A stretch of 64,000 bases of DNA, taken from positions 124,001-188,000 of the forward strand of contig LLYS01000002.1 of NCBI GenBank assembly GCA_002049495.1. The letters are read 5' to 3'. The translations under genes were made by a program, and so were the position numbers. A model generated the notes under the pieces. The model was given only the letters and a program-made list of their open reading frames with translations. It had not been told where the DNA came from and did not search any database. Of this stretch, positions 34,456 through 48,726 are shown one piece after another (the stretch's first letter is position 1; each line of letters opens with the position of its first letter). Source of the DNA: Epsilonproteobacteria bacterium tcs-49 (GTDB taxonomy: Bacteria > Campylobacterota > Campylobacteria > Campylobacterales > Sulfurovaceae).

Positions 34456-35640
34456 GTGCGACCCTTCTTTTTAAGAAACCTCTCCATCCGCCGGGTGGGT
34501 CTGCTCAGCGTTTACCTTGTCAGCTTTTTGATCCTTCTGTTTGCGCTTTTGATTATCGATCAGGAGTACAGTAACTACAAAAAAGAGGTGGCCAAGATCC
34601 AGCATGATATCGACGTCAGCGATGAGCAGAAAAAGCGCATCCTGGAGCAGAAAAAGGAGGAGTTCAAGATCAAAAAGATGCGTTATGTCATCGGTATCGG
34701 CGGCTTGACGCTGTTTATGTTCATCACCATCTACGCCATTATCCGGACCATCGCGTACTTTTTGGAACATGAGTTCAATATCTTTATCAGGCAGTTTGGC
34801 GAAGCGGCGAAAAACCATAAGCATCTCGACGAGAGTGAGTTTGGATTTATCGAATCCAAATCGGTCGTCAAAAACGCCAACGCCATGGTCGCCGAGATCC
34901 AGGAGCGCGAGCTGGAACTTGCCGAACTCAACCGCGATCTGGAAAAACGCGTTTTGCAAAAGACGAAAAAGCTGCAGCACCTGGTCAAAGCGCAGGATGA
35001 GTTTATCAAAAAGTCGATCCACGAGATTAACACACCCTTAAGCATCATCTTGACCAATATCGATCTTTTAAAGATGCAAGACAGCGCAAACCAGCATCTG
35101 ACCAATATCGAATCGGCATCCAAGATCATCCACAACTTGTTTAACGATTTAAGTTACCTTGTTAAAAAAGACCGGGTAGAATACACCAAAGAAAGGATCA
35201 ACCTTTCAAAGTTTTTGCGGCAGCGACTGGAATTTTTCGCCGAATTGGCAAACGTCAACGCTTTGCATATCGTGACCAACATCGAAGAGAATATCGAAGT
35301 GGTTTTCAACGAAACGAAGCTGCAGCGTGTTATTGACAATAACTTATCCAATATAATAAAATACAGTTATAGCCATAGCGGCGTTTTTATCTCCCTGAAC
35401 GCCGAGGGGGAGGAGGCGCTGCTTTCATTTAAAAACAGTTCCGATACCATAGAGGATTGCGAAGAGATCTTTCGGGAGTACTACCGGGAGAACGACGTCA
35501 AGGGGGGATACGGGATCGGACTGAGCATCGTCAAAGAGATTTGCGATGAAAACGGAGTGGCGGTGACGCTGGACTCCAAAGATAATATCACCCTATTTAC
35601 ATATAGATTCAAGGTTGCCAATGAAGATACTACTACTTGA
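34456..35640 (+). CDS. Membrane sensor histidine kinase of the acetate locus
   Basis: 394 residues from GTG 34456. TM helices at ~12-35 and ~77-100 flank a short, very charged loop (36-76), so there is no sizeable periplasmic sensor domain. A cytoplasmic coiled linker (EIQERELELAELNRDLEKR) leads to HisKA with phospho-acceptor H189 (SIHEINTPLS) and a HATPase with N box (DNNLSNIIKYS) and G box (GYGIGLSIVKEI). It overlaps the regulator gene by 20 bases. Its catalytic half resembles the kinase at 40936-42096. Signal unknown; transport-coupled sensing through PsiE or ActP is a guess. Confidence 0.88.
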   Translation: MRPFFLRNLSIRRVGLLSVYLVSFLILLFALLIIDQEYSNYKKEVAKIQHDIDVSDEQKKRILEQKKEEFKIKKMRYVIGIGGLTLFMFITIYAIIRTIAYFLEHEFNIFIRQFGEAAKNHKHLDESEFGFIESKSVVKNANAMVAEIQERELELAELNRDLEKRVLQKTKKLQHLVKAQDEFIKKSIHEINTPLSIILTNIDLLKMQDSANQHLTNIESASKIIHNLFNDLSYLVKKDRVEYTKERINLSKFLRQRLEFFAELANVNALHIVTNIEENIEVVFNETKLQRVIDNNLSNIIKYSYSHSGVFISLNAEGEEALLSFKNSSDTIEDCEEIFREYYRENDVKGGYGIGLSIVKEICDENGVAVTLDSKDNITLFTYRFKVANEDTTT

Positions 35641-36289
35641 GGATGAAACCCTGCTCAACCGCTCCATTACGGAGTTTTTGCAGCAAAAGGGGTATCTGGT
35701 CGAAAGCTTTAGCGACGGCAGGGAAGCGCTGGACGCTATTTTGGAAAATGAGTATGACCTGCTTTTACTTGATATCAACGTACCCAATATCAACGGCTTT
35801 GAGCTGCTTGAAAAGCTCAACTCCATGAAACGCAGCGTTTCGGTGATCTATATCAGCGCATTGATCGACGTGGAGGATATTTTGCAAGGCTATGAGCTGG
35901 GCTGCAGCGAATACATCAAAAAGCCTTTTCATTTGGAGGAGCTGTGCATCAAGATCAACCAGCTGGTCAAAAAGGAGCGCAGTCTCAGTAACCATATGCT
36001 CTTTAGCAAAAACTACAGCTACTGTAAAGACGACAGGACGCTGTATTATAAAAACGAACCCCAGGAGTTGACGAAGAAGCAGCTTGATATCATCCACACC
36101 CTCGCACTCAATATCAATATGGTGGTGGATTTCGAGCGCTTTCGGCTGGACGTATGGGACGGGGGCAACATCGATACGCCCACGATCCGCGCCGAGATCA
36201 GCCGTTTGAAAAAATCCCTCCGTGAAGATTTTATCAAAAACATCCGCGGGCTGGGCTATAAGATAGAACGTTACTATCCTGGACGCTAA
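35621..36289 (+). CDS. OmpR/PhoB-type response regulator
   Basis: 222 residues from the ATG at 35621. Receiver domain with acidic E8/D9 (LLLEDET), phospho-acceptor D51 (LLLLDINVPNINGFE) and lysine in YIKKPF, then a winged-helix DNA-binding domain ending IRGLGYKIER. Paired with the overlapping kinase. The repeats just downstream (36303-36402) are candidate binding sites controlling the DUF485/actP transcript. Close in sequence to the regulator at 42086-42745. Confidence 0.9.
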   Translation: MKILLLEDETLLNRSITEFLQQKGYLVESFSDGREALDAILENEYDLLLLDINVPNINGFELLEKLNSMKRSVSVIYISALIDVEDILQGYELGCSEYIKKPFHLEELCIKINQLVKKERSLSNHMLFSKNYSYCKDDRTLYYKNEPQELTKKQLDIIHTLALNINMVVDFERFRLDVWDGGNIDTPTIRAEISRLKKSLREDFIKNIRGLGYKIERYYPGR

Positions 36290-40935: not shown

Positions 40936-42096
40936 TTACTGTGGCACCGCATTATCTTTAAAAGTGTATGTAAAAGTACTGCCGCGCCCTACCCGTGAAG
41001 TTACGTTAAAAGCAACGCTGTTTTTCACGCAGATATTTTTTACTATATTCAGACCGATTCCAAAGCCTCCACTCACCTTATCACCTCTGTAGTATCTGTT
41101 AAATATCCTGCTGGTATCTTTGATGCCGATGCCGTTATCTTCAAAGCGTAAAAGAATCAAATCTTTTTTTTGCAGGGAGATTTTGATAAAAGAGCCCTCT
41201 TTGGAATATTTTATCGCGTTGGATATATTGTTATCGATCACTCTGTACAGTTCTATCTCATTAAACTGAAGTAAGATTCCATCTTCGATATGCGTTATAA
41301 GTTGTATATTTTTTGCCGTTACCAGGTCGTTGAAAAACTCAACCCTTTGTTCCAAAAGGTGAGAAAAGTTGATGGTTTTTTTTTCATCTTTTAAAAGGTG
41401 GCTTTGTATGTAATACTCCAAATCCTCATACACAACGGTCATATTCTTTAAAGCCGACGTAATACGAAGCAGGTGTGTATTGTTTTTGAGTCTCATCCGT
41501 AGCATATCCAGGTTGATTCTGGCTACCCCGATAGGGGTTTTTAACTCATGCATGGCATCTTTCAGGAAGTCGTCGAGGTATCTGTTTAACTGTTTATAGG
41601 GTTCGATGCTCTGTTTTATCGTAAAAAAGGAGGAGAGAAAGATCAAGCAGGTGATGGTCAAAAGCAAAATGATCGCATTGTAGATCACTTGGGAATTGTC
41701 AATATCTTTACATACGACGATATATTTAGCACCGAAAATATTGTCCGGCAGATACTCCTTATAGCATATCCGCTGCTTTTGTTTGAGAAACTGCGTATTA
41801 AAGTTAATCTGGGTATCGTCTTGCAAAAGTGAGAAGATCGCTTTGTCATCTTCTCCGTAGATTCCCGACGTGAAAATGTTGGAGCGCGGGTAGTAGAAGA
41901 AATCGCTATTTTCTTGCTCAAAGGCTTTGATTTTAAATATTACCGAGGAGGAGTAGTTTTTAAGAAGCATCTTGTTTTTCATTTTTTGGTTCTCAAAGGA
42001 GGCATCAAGGTAAAAGGATATAGGTATAAAGGCGATTGCTAACGTGAGCAAAACCTGAATGATAATGAACTTTATCTCATTTGGCTTACTTATCAA
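40936..42096 (-). CDS. Membrane sensor histidine kinase of the TsdA locus
   Basis: 386 residues. TM helices at ~8-30 and ~139-160 bound a ~108-residue periplasmic domain with two cysteines (C111, C129) that could respond to redox or thiols. HisKA phospho-acceptor is H183 (DAMHELKTPIG), followed by N box (DNNISNAIKYS), DNGIGI and GFGIGLNIVKN. It overlaps its regulator by 11 bases. The region is noticeably AT-richer than most of the window, hinting at different ancestry. It belongs to the same kinase subfamily as that at 34456-35640. Confidence 0.88.
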   Translation of the reverse strand: MISKPNEIKFIIIQVLLTLAIAFIPISFYLDASFENQKMKNKMLLKNYSSSVIFKIKAFEQENSDFFYYPRSNIFTSGIYGEDDKAIFSLLQDDTQINFNTQFLKQKQRICYKEYLPDNIFGAKYIVVCKDIDNSQVIYNAIILLLTITCLIFLSSFFTIKQSIEPYKQLNRYLDDFLKDAMHELKTPIGVARINLDMLRMRLKNNTHLLRITSALKNMTVVYEDLEYYIQSHLLKDEKKTINFSHLLEQRVEFFNDLVTAKNIQLITHIEDGILLQFNEIELYRVIDNNISNAIKYSKEGSFIKISLQKKDLILLRFEDNGIGIKDTSRIFNRYYRGDKVSGGFGIGLNIVKNICVKNSVAFNVTSRVGRGSTFTYTFKDNAVPQ

Positions 42097-42745
42097 TTTT
42101 ATATCCTACAAACCGCTTGGTTGTGATAAAGGTTTTATCGGTTTTATCCCGTATTCTTTTTATGCACATTCTAATATCTGCGTAGGAGATATCTCTGTTG
42201 CCCCAAATATTTTCATGCAGGTTTTCAATGGAGATATAGATTCCCCTGTTTTGAATGAGAAAAGATATCACTTCCCGCTCCTTCTGGGTCAACTCAACAA
42301 CGTTTTTATCTTTATAAAGGGTGTTTTTCTGTATGTCAAAACTATAGGTGCTGTTGAGCATTATCAAGTTTTCGTCGGAGTGGAAACATATGCTTTTTAT
42401 AAGCTGTTTTATTCTGTATTTCAATTCCAGCAGTTCAAAAGGCTTTTTGAGATAATCGTTGCATCTGAGTTCATACCCTTTACTTAAACTTGAAATATCC
42501 GTCAGTGACGTAAGTATGATTACGGGTGTTTGAATGTGGCTTTGCCGAAGGCTTGCGACTAGTTCAAACCCATCCATCCCGGGAACTCGGATATCTAAGA
42601 GTAAAAGATCATAATGGTTTTCATATATGGCATTCAGGGCTCTGTCCCCATCTTCAAAATCATCTATGACAAACCCGTTGTCAAGCAGATACTCTTTTAT
42701 GGATACCCTGTAGAGGTAATCATCTTCAAGCAGCAGTATTTTCAT
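42086..42745 (-). CDS. OmpR/PhoB-type response regulator of the TsdA locus
   Basis: 219 residues. Receiver with LLLEDDY, phospho-acceptor D51 (LLLLDIRVPGMDGFE) and YLKKPF; winged-helix domain with TQKEREVISFLIQNRG and ending TKRFVGYKI. Start overlaps the Cache-like gene stop by one base and its end overlaps the kinase. Likely controls tsdA and/or its own operon; the palindromic sequences upstream of tsdA (44670-44718) are candidate targets. Confidence 0.9.
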   Translation of the reverse strand: MKILLLEDDYLYRVSIKEYLLDNGFVIDDFEDGDRALNAIYENHYDLLLLDIRVPGMDGFELVASLRQSHIQTPVIILTSLTDISSLSKGYELRCNDYLKKPFELLELKYRIKQLIKSICFHSDENLIMLNSTYSFDIQKNTLYKDKNVVELTQKEREVISFLIQNRGIYISIENLHENIWGNRDISYADIRMCIKRIRDKTDKTFITTKRFVGYKIDK

Positions 42746-43674
42746 TACTTTATCACTACCTCCCTTTTTTCCACCGGGGCTCGGAAGTACCGGTGGGAAT
42801 TGACCATATCTCCGCTGTATTCATACTTTGGCAGATAATTAAAATCTTCGTACACCTTTTCAAAACCCGCGGCGAGATAACCGACGCTCATTCCTTTTCT
42901 AGTGCCGATGGGTATTAGGGTTATGATTCTGTCCCCTATCTCATGGTACAGCTTTTTCTTTTCAAGGATTGTTTTATTATGTTTTAAAAGGTCAAAAAGC
43001 TTTTTATTATAGTTTTTATCGATGACGACAAAGTCATAAAGTCTTTGGTTGTTTTGATGGTATTTGGCAATTTTTAAAAACTTGCTGTCAAGCAGGGGTA
43101 GTACTTCGATCCCCGCTATATGCAATCTTCTTCTTAATGGGGTGTAATCTGTAATCACTTCAAGTGATCCTATGTAGTTGCCTTTATCGTAGATGGGTGC
43201 GATCGCTTTTATGTTGAACCGTTTGCCCAGTTCATTGGAAACATGAGGCTGTTTGGTTGTTTTGACTTTTACCAAACCGTGTCTAAAGTCTTGCAGACTC
43301 AACCCCGTATCTTTATCTTCCCACGTTCTGACAAAGACTTTTAAATCTTTCGTATGAACCTGTATCTGGATTTTTTGTTCCTTTGTATTGTTTGATATGA
43401 GCTGTATTAGGGAGTTGAGTTCCTGTTTAAGCTTTTGTCTTTGATCGCTTTTAAAATAATCAATGATATGTTGGTTTTTGGCAAAAAGTATCGCGAGCGA
43501 GAGGGCGTGTTTTTTCTGATAGGAAAGTTCACTGTTGATAAACTCTACTCTTTTTGATACCAGCATATCCAATCTATTTTGATTTAAGATATCGTTGTAT
43601 TTTTTTAAAAAAAACAGCAGTGTCATGATGAAGACGGTAAAGAGGAGTATAAAGCTTTTATATGTTTTTGCCAT
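42745..43674 (-). CDS. Membrane-anchored Cache-like sensor protein without output domain
   Basis: 309 residues with one amino-terminal membrane helix (SFILLFTVFIMTLLFFL, residues ~7-23) and the rest apparently periplasmic. A long helix (~30-65) is followed by mixed alpha/beta sequence with VSNELGKRFNIKAIAPIYDKGNYIGSLEV split across strands, typical of double-Cache/sCache ligand sensors (the final strand pair GxYIGSLEV). No HAMP, kinase, GGDEF or methyl-accepting domain follows. It is coupled to the regulator (one-base overlap), so it may present ligand to the kinase. Function is inference. AT-rich like its partners. Confidence 0.7.
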   Translation of the reverse strand: MAKTYKSFILLFTVFIMTLLFFLKKYNDILNQNRLDMLVSKRVEFINSELSYQKKHALSLAILFAKNQHIIDYFKSDQRQKLKQELNSLIQLISNNTKEQKIQIQVHTKDLKVFVRTWEDKDTGLSLQDFRHGLVKVKTTKQPHVSNELGKRFNIKAIAPIYDKGNYIGSLEVITDYTPLRRRLHIAGIEVLPLLDSKFLKIAKYHQNNQRLYDFVVIDKNYNKKLFDLLKHNKTILEKKKLYHEIGDRIITLIPIGTRKGMSVGYLAAGFEKVYEDFNYLPKYEYSGDMVNSHRYFRAPVEKREVVIK

Positions 43675-43680
43675 CTTCGT

Positions 43681-43686
43681 ATTATA
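43681..43686 (-). promoter_or_regulatory. Candidate -10 of the Cache/regulator/kinase transcript
   Basis: On the minus strand a perfect TATAAT ends six bases before the Cache gene ATG (43672-43674). A start site at normal distance would fall on or next to the ATG, giving a leaderless mRNA. It directly abuts the tsdA 3' hairpin. No -35 is obvious. Confidence 0.4.
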
Positions 43687-43718
43687 GCCAAAAAGAGGGG
43701 TAACCTCTTTTTGGCTAT
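43684..43718 (-). terminator. Strong 15-bp hairpin at the end of tsdA
   Basis: ATAGCCAAAAAGAGG (43684-43698) and its exact complement (43704-43718) flank a five-base loop. The tsdA stop codon lies within the stem, and each arm holds a run of five A or T, so the element can act in either direction. It separates tsdA from the downstream Cache/two-component genes. Confidence 0.75.
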
Positions 43719-44659
43719 TTTATCTTTGTATCGCCGCGGATCTCATCGATATCTAAACCTAAAGCTTTGAAATTGCTTCTAACTGTGTGTTTCTCCTCTA
43801 AAACGATAGAGTTGTAATGTCCCATCTTTTCCTTTGGCAGCAAGCCCTTTTGAAGATCAAAATCGGCTCTTTGCTGGGCATTCATATAGAGCACCACATC
43901 AGCGGTTTCCTGATCACTTAAACTGTTTTCCTGCCCCAGCGGCATATTGGATTGAACCCATGCGGCACCTTTGTCCAGTTTGCTCATACCCGCACCGGTA
44001 TTGTAGCTTAACCAGTTTCCCTGAGAATCTTTTCCCCATAGCGGAGGAAAAGTCCCGGAAATTCCCTCACCGTTCACCCCGTGACAGGAAGCACACTTTT
44101 GCTTATAAACTTTTTCCCCTGCGACATAGTTTGCATGTGTCGCTTTTTTTTGAATAGTCTTGAATTTTTTGACACTTTCTGGGTAGAGTTTGGTATTGTG
44201 CGTACTCCAGGGACCTTTTGCATTCATTTTTACAGGTATGCCCTCTGAAAGCCAAGTGATATAAGTTGCCATGGCGATACTCGCTTTGGAATCGATGACG
44301 GGTCTTTTGCCGTTCATACTTCGCATGAAGCAGTTATTGGACCTGTCCTGAAGCGTTTGTACTGTTTTTTCCCTTTTGGACCAGGCGGGAAAAGCCGCTG
44401 CGGTACCGATCCAGCTGGATATTCCGTCAGCGGTTCCCGGTTTACCGTCCGGACCAGGCAGATGACAGTTTTTACACTGCAGCTTGTTACCGACCAAGTC
44501 CTTTGTCAGCGGGTGGGTGTCGGTATTGTTCATGATATCCTCACCCAGTTTAACCATCTTTCCCAGTTCACCTTTGGGGTACTCTTTAGGGGCACTTCCT
44601 GCGATTACATAAGCAGTTGACAGCAACCCTAAGATACCGATTTTTAATACTGTCTGCAT
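43715..44659 (-). CDS. tsdA: TsdA-like diheme cytochrome c (thiosulfate dehydrogenase / tetrathionate reductase)
   Basis: 314 residues with a signal peptide (LKIGILGLLSTAYVIAGS). Heme 1: C62-x2-C65-H66. Then DRSNNCFMRSMNGK with C110, the position of the unusual cysteine ligand of the active-site heme in TsdA. Heme 2: C189-x2-C192-H193, with a distal methionine in SNMPLG. These features match TsdA, which couples two thiosulfates to tetrathionate; Campylobacter TsdA can run in the reductive direction. AAGGAGAG precedes the ATG. Neighbours are rhodanese and DoxX genes on one side and a sensory operon on the other, supporting a sulfur-oxyanion role. Direction of catalysis here is unknown. Confidence 0.87.
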   Translation of the reverse strand: MQTVLKIGILGLLSTAYVIAGSAPKEYPKGELGKMVKLGEDIMNNTDTHPLTKDLVGNKLQCKNCHLPGPDGKPGTADGISSWIGTAAAFPAWSKREKTVQTLQDRSNNCFMRSMNGKRPVIDSKASIAMATYITWLSEGIPVKMNAKGPWSTHNTKLYPESVKKFKTIQKKATHANYVAGEKVYKQKCASCHGVNGEGISGTFPPLWGKDSQGNWLSYNTGAGMSKLDKGAAWVQSNMPLGQENSLSDQETADVVLYMNAQQRADFDLQKGLLPKEKMGHYNSIVLEEKHTVRSNFKALGLDIDEIRGDTKIK

Positions 44660-44669
44660 TCTCTCTCCT

Positions 44670-44718
44670 TATGGTGAAAATTGTTACCATAAAGAAATAA
44701 TAATATATCAATGTAACA
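44670..44718 (-). promoter_or_regulatory. Palindromic and TGTAAC-type sites upstream of tsdA
   Basis: TATGGT and ACCATA (44670-44675, 44686-44691) form an inverted repeat just upstream of the tsdA ribosome site, and GTTAC (44683-44687) and TGTAACA (44712-44718) lie 24 bases apart in an AT-rich tract. The TGTAAC element also occurs upstream of the DUF485/actP unit. Likely regulator binding region; exact sites are unproven. Confidence 0.4.
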
Positions 44719-44826
44719 TGAAAATAACAAAATGGTTTTAAAAAGTGTGGATAAACCATATGATCTGCAGCGGTTGTGTGCCCGTTACGTCAATGATCGT
44801 CGCAGTATTTCTTCGGGAGGGAAACG

Positions 44827-44842
44827 CCGCCCGGGAGGGCGG
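44827..44842 (-). terminator. GC-rich hairpin after the rhodanese gene
   Basis: CCGCCC and GGGCGG around a four-base loop, 12 bases past the rhodanese stop on the minus strand, followed by CGTTTCCC. Short T run only. The rest of the ~190 bases between this gene and tsdA holds the tsdA regulatory sequences. Confidence 0.55.
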
Positions 44843-44853
44843 GGTTTGAAAGG

Positions 44854-45681
44854 TTACAGCAGATCCGAAAGATCGGGGTTTGGTTCTATCTCACACTCCG
44901 TACCTTCACACTCGACTTTCGCATCAAAATACAGGGCGCGATTGGCCGCTTCTTTGCTCAGCGACATATACGCATCCGTCGACATCATCCCCGTGTTGCA
45001 ATAGAGGATGCTGAGTTTGTCCTTTGGCAGTTTCGACTCGTCCAAACTGTCCGAATCGGAGTCATACACCACGTTGATAGCACCTTTTAAGTGCCCCTGT
45101 TTAAACTGCTTGGCCGGTCGCGTATCCACAAGTTGGATATTGCTAGGCAGCGCACCCTCTTCGATCAGTTTGGCAAGCCAGAATTGGTCCACCATCCCTT
45201 CCGAACCGCCGGGGTAAGCCATGACGCCGTTTTTCATAATGGAGTCCCGTTTTGGCGTGTACTCCCCGTCTTCACCGCCTTTACACTCTCTGACGATTCC
45301 CATGAGCGGATGGTCGTTCTCCTTCCATTCCGGGTAGCCTCCGGGGTATACCACGACGTCGGTATAGCCAGCTTTTACGAGTTTCTCCGCCAATTTGTCC
45401 GATTTGTGGCATTTGTAACCGTTACAAAAGGAGACGATCTTGGCATCTTTGTTTGCGGGTAAAAGTCCCTGCAACTGTGAAAACTTTTTTGGGGGAAGAC
45501 TGAGCGACCCCATGATCGTTTCGATCTGATAAAGTTTAAATCCGCGTGCGTCTAAAAACAGAGCGGTTCCTTTATCGTAGATCGCTTTTGCCTCCTCCGT
45601 GGAAATCTTTTTCAAATCCGCGGCGATCGCCGAAGAAAACAGCAAAGCGATCCCCACCGCTACTATCCATAAACGTCTCAT
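44854..45681 (-). CDS. Periplasmic double-rhodanese sulfurtransferase
   Basis: 275 residues, starting at the ATG at 45679-45681 (AAAGGAT upstream) with a signal peptide (WIVAVGIALLFSSAIAA). Two rhodanese domains: the first has the active loop CNGYKC (VSFCNGYKCHKS), the second CNTGMM (ILYCNTGMMST), each with the expected catalytic cysteine. Conserved DARG and DTRPAKQFKQGHLKGA strands are present. Additional cysteines (RECKGG and CEGTEC near the end) are noteworthy. It likely handles sulfane sulfur in the periplasm, in line with TsdA downstream. Donor and acceptor unknown. Confidence 0.87.
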   Translation of the reverse strand: MRRLWIVAVGIALLFSSAIAADLKKISTEEAKAIYDKGTALFLDARGFKLYQIETIMGSLSLPPKKFSQLQGLLPANKDAKIVSFCNGYKCHKSDKLAEKLVKAGYTDVVVYPGGYPEWKENDHPLMGIVRECKGGEDGEYTPKRDSIMKNGVMAYPGGSEGMVDQFWLAKLIEEGALPSNIQLVDTRPAKQFKQGHLKGAINVVYDSDSDSLDESKLPKDKLSILYCNTGMMSTDAYMSLSKEAANRALYFDAKVECEGTECEIEPNPDLSDLL

Positions 45682-45797
45682 TACTCTATCCTTTATCTTG
45701 GGTTTATCAATTATGACACACATAACTTTAAATAAAGCTATAGAATAATAAAGAACGGTTATCTTTTTATATTAGCAAAAGTTACTTACCGTAAATA

Positions 45798-46193
45798 TCA
45801 ATCCCTATCGATGGAATATTTCCCGCTTCCCAAAAAGATGATCGCCAGCGACGTCAGGATATAAAAATAGATCACTTCCAGCTCAAGCGCGCCGTGCTTG
45901 GTCAGTGCCAACAGTTCATCGGCATGGACCAGATAGATCGCCGTGAGCATGGTAAAGATCAAAAATCCCGCGGCGATACGGGTTTGATAGCCGATGATCA
46001 AAAGTGCCGGAGCGACCAGTTCTCCAAGGTAAACGCCGTAGGCCAGAAATGCGGGCAAGCCTTTGGACTCGAGCATCCCCTCGATGAATCCCACCCCGTG
46101 CATCAGTTTGGAGTACCCGTGAAAAAGCATCATCACGCCCACGGCAAGCCGGAGCAGCAGTTTGGCCAGATCGGGATTGTGTAACATTGGCAT
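45798..46193 (-). CDS. DoxX-family membrane protein
   Basis: 131 residues, four hydrophobic helices, from the ATG at 46191-46193 with GGGGAG upstream. Family features: [22 protein letters not shown] and [13 protein letters not shown]. DoxX relatives include the membrane subunit of thiosulfate:quinone oxidoreductase (DoxD) but many have other or unknown roles. Its position upstream of rhodanese and tsdA makes a sulfur role plausible. The 116 bases to the rhodanese gene show only AT-rich sequence. Confidence 0.82.
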
Positions 46194-46242: not shown

Positions 46243-47811
46243 TCAGGTTTCTTCGCTCTCCACCCTGTTGCGGCCGCCGTTTTTGGCTTTGTAGAGTGCG
46301 TCGTCGGCCCGCCTGATGAGGCTTTGCACCGAATCGCCGCGGCGGTACGCCGCAACGCCGAAGCTGGCGGTTTTCGTACCGATGACGGGAAAGTTGTGCT
46401 TTTGTATCACTTCCCGCAGCCGCCGGGCAAGCTGTACGCTATCGTGCAAAGAGGTGCCCGGCAGGATCAAAATAAACTCCTCTCCGCCCCATCTGCCTAT
46501 GATATCGCTATCGGAGCGGTTATTGCGGCGTAAAATCTCGGCAAAGGTTTGCAGGGTCGTATCGCCGACCTGGTGGCCGTGGGTATCGTTGACCTGTTTG
46601 AAAAAATCGATATCGATGATCACCACGCCAAAAGGGGTATCGCTTTTTTCTGCCTCTTTCAGCTGGTGGTGCAGGGTTTCATTGATCTTGTGGCGGTTAT
46701 ACAGGTTTGTCAGCGAGTCGGTCGTGGAGAGGTGTTTGATCTTTTGCTGATCGCGCAGGGCAACGATACCAAACGCCAGGTTAGCCGCCAGTTCGTGCAG
46801 CAAGGCGATCTCCTCGTCGATAAAGGCGTTGGTCTCTTTGGCGTAGAGAGTCAGCGCTCCGATCACGTGATCTTGTATGGCGATGGGGAAAGCGGCGCAG
46901 GAGTAGTAGCCAAACTCTCGTGCCCGCTTTTTCCACGGGGTAAACAGCGCATCTTTTTGGGTATCGTTGATGATGACGTCGCGGTGTTCTTTGATGCAGA
47001 TTCCCGTCGGGCCGTTACCTTCGGGGCCGTCGCCGTAGTTGATCGTAATACCGTCGAGATAGAGGGTGCTCTCTCCGCTGCTTGTGACGATATCTATCTG
47101 CCGGTTTTTTTCGGCATACCCGATCCATACCAGCGGGTAGCCGCAGACTTTGTGGATATTTTCACAGATGCGGTGGAGCAGTTCCTCCTCATTTTTGGCA
47201 TGGGTGAGGGCAAAGTTGGATTTGCTCAGCGCTTCGTGGGAGCGGTTGATGATGCGCAACCTGTTTGTGTGGTGGTCGATCTCCGCTTTCAGCGGTAGCA
47301 AAATCCAGCGTGAAAGGATCATCCACAGCAGCGTCCCGAACCCCACGGTCAAGATAACGCTAAAGGTGCCCAGCTTGAAAGCGAGGTCTTGAAGCATCGC
47401 CGTAAGGTTGTGGGTGTCATGGGCCAGGTGCAGCGTTACCCTGGTCTCACCCGCGAGGAGTTCCCGCTGTTTTTCGATGATATGGCGATTATGGACGGCG
47501 TGTTCCAAAGAACCGAAGTTGTAAAAATCCAGTCCGTTGAGTTTGATATCGAGATACTCGATACTGGGCAGACGGGTTTGCCATTTTTGCAAAAAGTTTT
47601 TCGCTTCGGCATAGTCGTGGCGCTGCAGGTTATCACGCAGAAACTCCGCCAGCAGGTTGATCTCGATTTCAACGCGTTTTTCCATATCGTGCAGCATCTT
47701 GTTCTTTTGCGATTCGTACATATAGACGGCCACGGAGGCCAGAAAGATAAAAAGGGTGCTGAGGATAAAAATGATCAGCCGGTTTTTTTGCCTCGTATAG
47801 GTGTGTGTCAT
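46243..47811 (-). CDS. Membrane GAF-GGDEF diguanylate cyclase
   Basis: 522 residues. TM helices at ~11-31 and ~145-165 enclose a ~110-residue periplasmic domain; then a GAF domain (~200-345) and a GGDEF domain (~355-518). The active site reads GRWGGEEF, an allowed GG(D/E)EF form, and the ion-binding [14 protein letters not shown] precedes it, so c-di-GMP synthesis is expected. No RxxD inhibitory site is obvious five residues before GGEEF (it reads SDIIG). The start overlaps the stop of the PhnD-like gene in TAATG, which suggests it receives its signal from that binding protein. Confidence 0.9.
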
Positions 47812-48632
47812 TATTTTTCCAATATCGGCAGCACGGTTTGCAGCATTGCGCGATGGTAGTCGTAATAACTGTCTTTGACCGGAACAAAACCGGTGAGATT
47901 AGCGCTGATCGCTTGCAGTACCTTCGGGTCGTCCAGCTTCAAAAGCGCCCGGCGTATCTTTTGGCGCAGGGGTTTTGGCATTGTCGATGCCGTGGTGAAA
48001 AGGTGTGTGGAGAGGCGGGGGGAGTAGGCGAGGGCTTTTAACCCTTCGCTGCGCTTTTCCAAAAACACCTCCTCCGCGACTGCCCCCGCGTCAAAATCCC
48101 CAAACAGCGTCCCGTAAACGACGTTTTCATGGTTGCGCATATGCAGATAGGCTTTGAGGTCTTTGAGCTCGACCCCCGCTTGCAAAAGCATAAAAAGCGG
48201 CACCTGCGTACTGAGCGTGGAGTTGGTATTGCCAAAGGCGAAGCGTTTGCCCCGAAGCTCTTTTAAAGAGGTCAGAGGTGAGCGCTGGGCGGTGATGATA
48301 ACGGAGCGGAAAGTGGGCTTTCCCTTGAACTCGTAGCGCACGAGCAGGGGTTTTGGACCGTACTTATCGGTGATAAGTACGTAGGGACTGCCGCCTAAAA
48401 AGGAGATGTCGAGTCTGTCTTTGCCGCTGTTGACGATGTGGCTTTCATAATCTTTGGCGATGACGATCTTGACGTCACGGCCCAGCTCTTTTGAGAGATA
48501 TTCCGCCAGCGGGGTGTATTTTTGCAAGAGCGCCGAGGAGCTGAGATAGGGCATGAATCCAAGCGTCAGTGCCCTTTGCTGGGCAAAAAGCGCAAGGCAG
48601 GACAGTAAAAGTACAACGAGTATCTTTTTCAT
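47811..48632 (-). CDS. PhnD-family periplasmic substrate-binding protein
   Basis: 273 residues, beginning at ATG 48630-48632 with a signal peptide (KKILVVLLLSCLALFA). It resembles phosphate/phosphonate-type (PhnD) binding proteins: LGFMPYLSSSALLQKYTPLAEYLS is the characteristic opening, then LDISFLGGSPYVL and the hinge LRGKRFAFGNTNSTLS. No ABC permease or ATPase is adjacent. Instead its stop overlaps the diguanylate cyclase start, so it is probably a ligand-sensing partner rather than a transport component. Ligand unknown. Confidence 0.85.
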   Translation of the reverse strand: MKKILVVLLLSCLALFAQQRALTLGFMPYLSSSALLQKYTPLAEYLSKELGRDVKIVIAKDYESHIVNSGKDRLDISFLGGSPYVLITDKYGPKPLLVRYEFKGKPTFRSVIITAQRSPLTSLKELRGKRFAFGNTNSTLSTQVPLFMLLQAGVELKDLKAYLHMRNHENVVYGTLFGDFDAGAVAEEVFLEKRSEGLKALAYSPRLSTHLFTTASTMPKPLRQKIRRALLKLDDPKVLQAISANLTGFVPVKDSYYDYHRAMLQTVLPILEK

Positions 48633-48726
48633 GGCGGCACCTTTCAACGGTTGCATAAAAACAGCTTTTATTGTATTGTAGCATATAGGAGTCGCACATA
48701 GTGAGACTGGAGATAAAGGAGAGCAA

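Follow-up and report, generated by a model that had tools for sequence, protein, structure and literature searches.

The closest described systems are two sensor pairs encoded beside enzymes of sulfur oxyanions. ThsSR of Shewanella halifaxensis is a thiosulfate-sensing two-component system located beside PhsAB/PsrC, where it activates the reductase promoter, and its kinase ThsS was identified through a PhnD-like sensor domain within the protein (PMC5408782). TtrSR, present in Salmonella, Shewanella baltica and Vibrio parahaemolyticus, is also encoded beside the enzyme that it controls, a molybdenum tetrathionate reductase, and has a PhnD-like sensing domain. Campylobacterota are major sulfur oxidisers of vents and sulfidic waters, and their sox and tsdA enzymes are described in the literature searched, where a dedicated regulator of either was not found. 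In Arcobacter butzleri the genetic switch between sulfite oxidation and reduction was still to be identified according to the genome paper (PMC2147049).

The locus analysed here comprises six open reading frames in the same direction, all confirmed by the ORF list and by Pfam, within a window of 64 kb (the whole stretch of DNA under analysis). The features are listed in Table 1. The sequence-only reading had joined the six genes in one sulfur-oxyanion module; its gene list was right, but the six are not conserved together as one module. What is conserved is tsdA with a trio of translationally coupled genes for a dCache protein, an OmpR-type response regulator and a histidine kinase, and this part of the proposed module stands, whereas DoxX and the double rhodanese drop out of it. 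Judged by its domains, the trio is neither TtrSR nor ThsSR, and would fill a similar role although it is built differently. ThsSR works like the proposed trio, being a sensor beside a thiosulfate reductase whose promoter it activates, but the PhnD-like domain is inside ThsS, whereas the trio has a kinase with a small non-PhnD periplasmic domain, a separate dCache protein as candidate sensor and a regulator of the OmpR type. With TtrSR the trio shares the position beside a sulfur-oxyanion enzyme, its control of that enzyme being predicted; the PhnD-like domain and the molybdenum reductase are both absent from the trio and from the tsdA linked to it.

Table 1. Features of the tsdA-trio locus and its neighbours (positions within the window).
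Feature	Position	Strand	Evidence
Histidine kinase	40936..42096	-	His183; HATPase 1.2e-17; HisKA just below Pfam cut-off
OmpR-type response regulator	42086..42745	-	PF00072 5.9e-25; PF00486 (Trans_reg_C, winged-helix) 1.1e-12; phospho-acceptor D51
Stand-alone periplasmic dCache_3 sensor protein	42745..43674	-	dCache_3 PF14827 8e-13; one N-terminal membrane helix
Perfect 15-bp-stem hairpin between tsdA and Cache gene	43684..43718		-22.6 kcal/mol; z -8.2
tsdA, predicted dihaem thiosulfate dehydrogenase / tetrathionate reductase	43715..44659	-	SoxA/TsdA cytochrome domain and C-terminal cytochrome c
-10-like TATTAT for tsdA	44697..44702	-	Consensus scan; -10-like position in aligned promoters
Predicted regulator box GTTATTTTCATGTTAC, two GTTAY half-sites, 11-bp period	44713..44728	-	About 55-70 bp before tsdA start
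G+C-rich hairpin after rhodanese gene, ahead of tsdA promoter	44822..44847	-	-15.3 kcal/mol over the stretch; z -2.0
Periplasmic double rhodanese	44854..45678	-	PF00581 2.1e-28, two stretches
DoxX-family membrane protein, 131 aa	45798..46193	-	Pfam DoxX 1.3e-20; likely start 46193

The Cache protein has no output domain and must therefore act through another protein. Its AlphaFold2 model (pLDDT 87, with low confidence beyond residue 276) has an intact two-module dCache fold. The best structural matches were dCache structures, the nearest solved fold being the DctB sensor (3by9, 10% identity), and the search of PDB by sequence gave no match. In DctB the Cache domain is within the kinase, whereas the Cache protein of the trio is stand-alone, membrane-tethered and encoded by its own gene across the phylum. 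The Cache sequences of the trios are highly divergent (20-30% identity). An R-W-R motif in the pocket was considered as an oxyanion signature and discarded, the conserved Arg and Trp being common to other dCache_3 receptors; Gln105 (His elsewhere) is the only pocket residue that sets the trio protein apart from these.

The Pfam search of the kinase identified only HATPase_c and the sub-threshold HisKA, with no Phosphonate-bd match, and the distinction from TtrSR drawn from the sequence alone is thus borne out by the lack of a PhnD-like domain. In the kinase model (pLDDT 84.6) two membrane helices flank a small alpha/beta periplasmic domain, and in the kinase alignment this region is partly conserved, with Pro70 invariant and Arg71 nearly so. 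Both observations would suit an arrangement where the ligand is sensed by the kinase's own domain, with the Cache protein in an accessory role, either tuning that domain or linking it to another signal. This is rather unlikely, since the Cache protein is a dedicated, translationally coupled partner with its fold intact, and it would alter the wiring and leave the regulon as it is. Control of a kinase by an accessory protein is known in principle, as for QseG-QseE (PMC12691602).

TsdA contains two c-type haems (CKNCH at 62-66 and CASCH at 189-193), the N-terminal SoxA/TsdA domain, the Cys that is the sixth ligand of haem 1 and the Met of haem 2, as in the TsdA family. In the comparison with the Allochromatium vinosum enzyme (PDB 4wq7, E 8e-38) both haem motifs, Cys110 and Met239 align, and C110, which had been singled out as diagnostic, falls on the haem-1 Cys ligand. 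The protein of the window is predicted from these features to be a thiosulfate/tetrathionate-interconverting enzyme. The position two before the haem-2 Asn is known to shift the reaction direction; it is Gln236 here and Lys252 in Campylobacter jejuni TsdA, and the sequence assigns no direction. The C. jejuni protein, a bifunctional tetrathionate reductase, otherwise resembles that of the window in the catalytic Cys ligand and in the haem-2 pair, Asn254-Met255 there (PMC5146829) and Asn238-Met239 here.

A search for the Cache protein covered 149 relatives, the neighbourhoods were fetched and the kinase alignment was then run on a named collection of genomes. About 100 trio loci were examined and, among the matches listed, all belong to Campylobacterota. 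The gene order is Cache, regulator, kinase. In the window the first two genes overlap as TAATG (stop/start), and this 4-bp overlap was identified in 43 of 50 same-strand pairs of the relatives, where regulator and kinase usually overlap by 8-14 bp. The neighbours of the trio are tsdA, soxXYZAB, genes of a phsABC-type reductase or, in a minor branch, multihaem cytochrome genes. SoxX, SoxY, SoxZ, SoxA, SoxB and PhsA were all above the NCBIfam cut-offs, although the model for PhsA may fail to distinguish thiosulfate reductases from those of polysulfide. The trio accompanies tsdA in Malaciobacter halophilus DSM 18005, tsdA and phs in Sulfurospirillum diekertiae, and sox in genomes of Sulfurimonas, Sulfuricurvum, Sulfurovum, Nitratiruptor and Hydrogenimonas; in Campylobacter concisus phs is found with the regulator and the kinase, the Cache gene lying a few genes off. 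One genome (L058) contains two trios back to back, one linked to sox and the other to tsdA. The gene tsdA is placed before, after or divergent from the trio depending on the lineage, so the linkage has outlived rearrangement. The sensor had been claimed to be dedicated to sulfur oxyanions, a claim made to depend on its co-conservation with tsdA; tsdA, sox or phs are indeed alongside the sensor genes in distant relatives, and a promoter box is shared.

The kinase tree comprises 99 trio rows and an outgroup, with 82 rows labelled by four contexts. The kinases linked to tsdA and phs form one supported clade and those linked to sox and cytochromes the remainder, the root being uncertain because of long branches. 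Sulfur contexts account for 79 of the 82 labelled rows, and the labels need 3 changes on the tree against 31.7 when shuffled. With only about three changes the associations appear old and mostly vertical; for the same reason, the loci being related, their number is not a count of independent associations.

The box upstream of tsdA is the single match within the window, and the same element precedes trio-linked tsdA, soxX and phsA in the relatives, overlapping the predicted -35 region of these promoters. OmpR/PhoB-type regulators bind direct repeats in tandem, one helical turn apart. Window tsdA and its kin have GTTAY-N6-GTTAY upstream. An unseeded scan for repeated 5-mers identified TTTAC repeats with an 11-bp period upstream of 42 of 49 soxX genes (shuffle maximum 4). 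The joint pattern KTTAY-N6-KTTAY, a direct repeat of 11-bp period chosen after the promoters had been inspected, was present before 48 of 51 trio-linked soxX (1.3 expected), 4 of 10 phsA (0.24 expected) and 15 of 26 trio-linked tsdA as scored, or 17 of 27 with two loci added by eye (L049, where the Cache gene is adjacent, and L121, where the ORF start is over-extended). In tsdA without a trio it was identified once in 13 cases, which include 8 without it from one genus with other tsdA surroundings; the difference between linked and unlinked tsdA (17/27 vs 1/13) gives a Fisher p of 0.0017, with kinship ignored and those two loci scored by eye. About one third of the trio-linked tsdA lack the strict box, some having TTAC or GTGAC variants and others none that could be seen. 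Before soxX the box starts mostly 61-66 bp upstream of the gene, with a -10-like element after it. The tsdA and sox clades have different half-sites (GTTAY and TTTAC) and also different residues in the recognition helix of the regulator.

Genome-wide, tighter lineage forms of the box were nearly unique, being single and at tsdA in three genomes (G096, G142 and G047). Two others (G032 and G041) have two copies each, both in the sox cluster, where one is at soxX and the other at a gene that lies 4-5 kb beyond soxB, and the remaining genomes tested have up to four, some elsewhere. In the genome of the window there are two copies, the other lying before a pstS-like gene and probably being a Pho box. 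The loose pattern KTTACN6KTTAC was discarded for naming the regulon as too unspecific, with 31 genome-wide matches against 14 for the reversed control. In another genome (L250, G023) three near-identical tandem blocks of 3.9 kb (cytochrome-like, 145-aa and 333-aa genes) follow the sox cluster, each with a box; they may be due to genuine amplification or to the assembly.

The reading that we favour, with a probability of about 0.7, is that the trio is a three-component system activating sulfur-oxyanion enzymes, tsdA plus this switch being the conserved unit. A periplasmic sulfur oxyanion, most likely thiosulfate and alternatively tetrathionate, would be bound by the tethered dCache protein, which would contact the kinase at its small periplasmic domain. 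The OmpR-type regulator, once phosphorylated by the kinase, would bind the direct repeat over the -35 region and activate, rather than repress, tsdA. Between tsdA and the Cache gene, the hairpin has no U tract on the tsdA strand and may thus be a partial barrier and not a clean terminator; it may be either a partial terminator or an RNA-stability element. Read-through past it would also raise the expression of the sensor itself. As the trio recurs beside genes for thiosulfate oxidation or reduction with a shared DNA switch, it probably tells Campylobacterota at which times sulfur oxyanions should be used.

Sox, TsdA and Phs have a single substrate or product in common, thiosulfate, which is for this reason the leading candidate as ligand and the most economical one; tetrathionate and polysulfide are possible too, as is a respiratory cue of a broader kind. 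The trio may also control sulfur genes while sensing something else, for example sulfide or polysulfide, an organic anion, or a redox or respiratory cue, as a general switch for respiratory donors and acceptors. The wide differences among Cache sequences, a dicarboxylate sensor as nearest solved fold and the possibility that Phs-type enzymes are polysulfide reductases point in that direction, as does the cytochrome branch, where the same box precedes multihaem c-type cytochrome genes; because of this branch, sulfur sensing need not extend to every trio. Even so, such a general switch is quite unlikely given the predominance of sulfur contexts among the labelled rows of the kinase tree. In the trios of that branch (L082, L096, L097 and L128) the box lies 62-65 bp before a gene for a multihaem c-type cytochrome of about 230 aa. 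Genes for an NHL-repeat protein and a PpiC-type protein come next in L082 and L128, a layout like that of extracellular-electron-transfer clusters, and genes similar to enzymes of sulfur amino acids in L096 and L097.

The double rhodanese has two intact active loops, as had been proposed (CNGYKC at 85 and CNTGMM at 227, with the Cys kept in both), and its first listed start (45723) is probably over-extended. The same probably applies to the long DoxX ORF, which reaches 46355 and overlaps the GGDEF gene. The DoxX-family match is the only one in the whole genome; the thiosulfate:quinone oxidoreductase DoxDA, considered as an identity for this protein, is formed by DoxD plus DoxA subunits. Both proteins are local neighbours outside the conserved unit. 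That DoxX, rhodanese, TsdA and sensor make one functional module is very improbable, in spite of the six genes being adjacent on the same strand: among about 120 relative loci no DoxX match and a single, weak rhodanese-like one (28%, in L058) were identified near the trio, in the relatives the rhodanese homologues are either distant from tsdA or on a different contig, and the rhodanese-tsdA gap of 194 bp holds a hairpin and the promoter-like region of tsdA itself.

Other signalling genes were identified around the locus and in the same genome. Directly upstream of DoxX (46243-48656, minus strand) lie a PhnD-like substrate-binding protein (PF12974, 7.6e-63) and then a GAF-GGDEF diguanylate cyclase; TtrS has a sensor domain of this PhnD-like type. 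In L121 a pair with loose similarity to this one stands before tsdA. With that exception the PhnD homologues at other loci lie away from tsdA, and the pair was rejected as a second conserved sulfur sensor. At 34456-36289 (plus strand) a second, related pair of kinase and OmpR-type regulator without a Cache gene precedes a sodium/solute symporter gene, an arrangement also present in L185, L194 and L198. A separate sox cluster of the window's own genome (L118, G000:C3), with the other SoxB type (about 42% identity), has no adjoining trio, and no GTTA-type box was found there. The best candidate for a second trio in the genome (G000:C1:165236, L010) was discarded, being a frame-broken chemoreceptor: in L010 and L119 (G000:C1, about 165200-167300) a dCache_3 chemoreceptor gene is frameshifted, with ORFs overlapping in two frames, and is either a pseudogene or an assembly error.

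The trio system was not described in the literature searched, subscription papers being mostly outside that search, and its novelty is provisional on that account. Tentatively, and at slightly less than even odds, it may be an ancestral three-component sensor of Campylobacterota with a detachable dCache protein, vertically inherited across the phylum and serving the enzymes that oxidise (Sox), interconvert (TsdA) or reduce (Phs) thiosulfate, with the half-sites of a single promoter box of 11-bp period adjusted by lineage. The predicted sensor, its binding box and a short list of targets are directly testable. As a biosensor part, too, a new type of thiosulfate sensor would be useful and, if the ancestral reading is true, one thiosulfate regulon would extend through the phylum Campylobacterota and its sensor would be of a new design.
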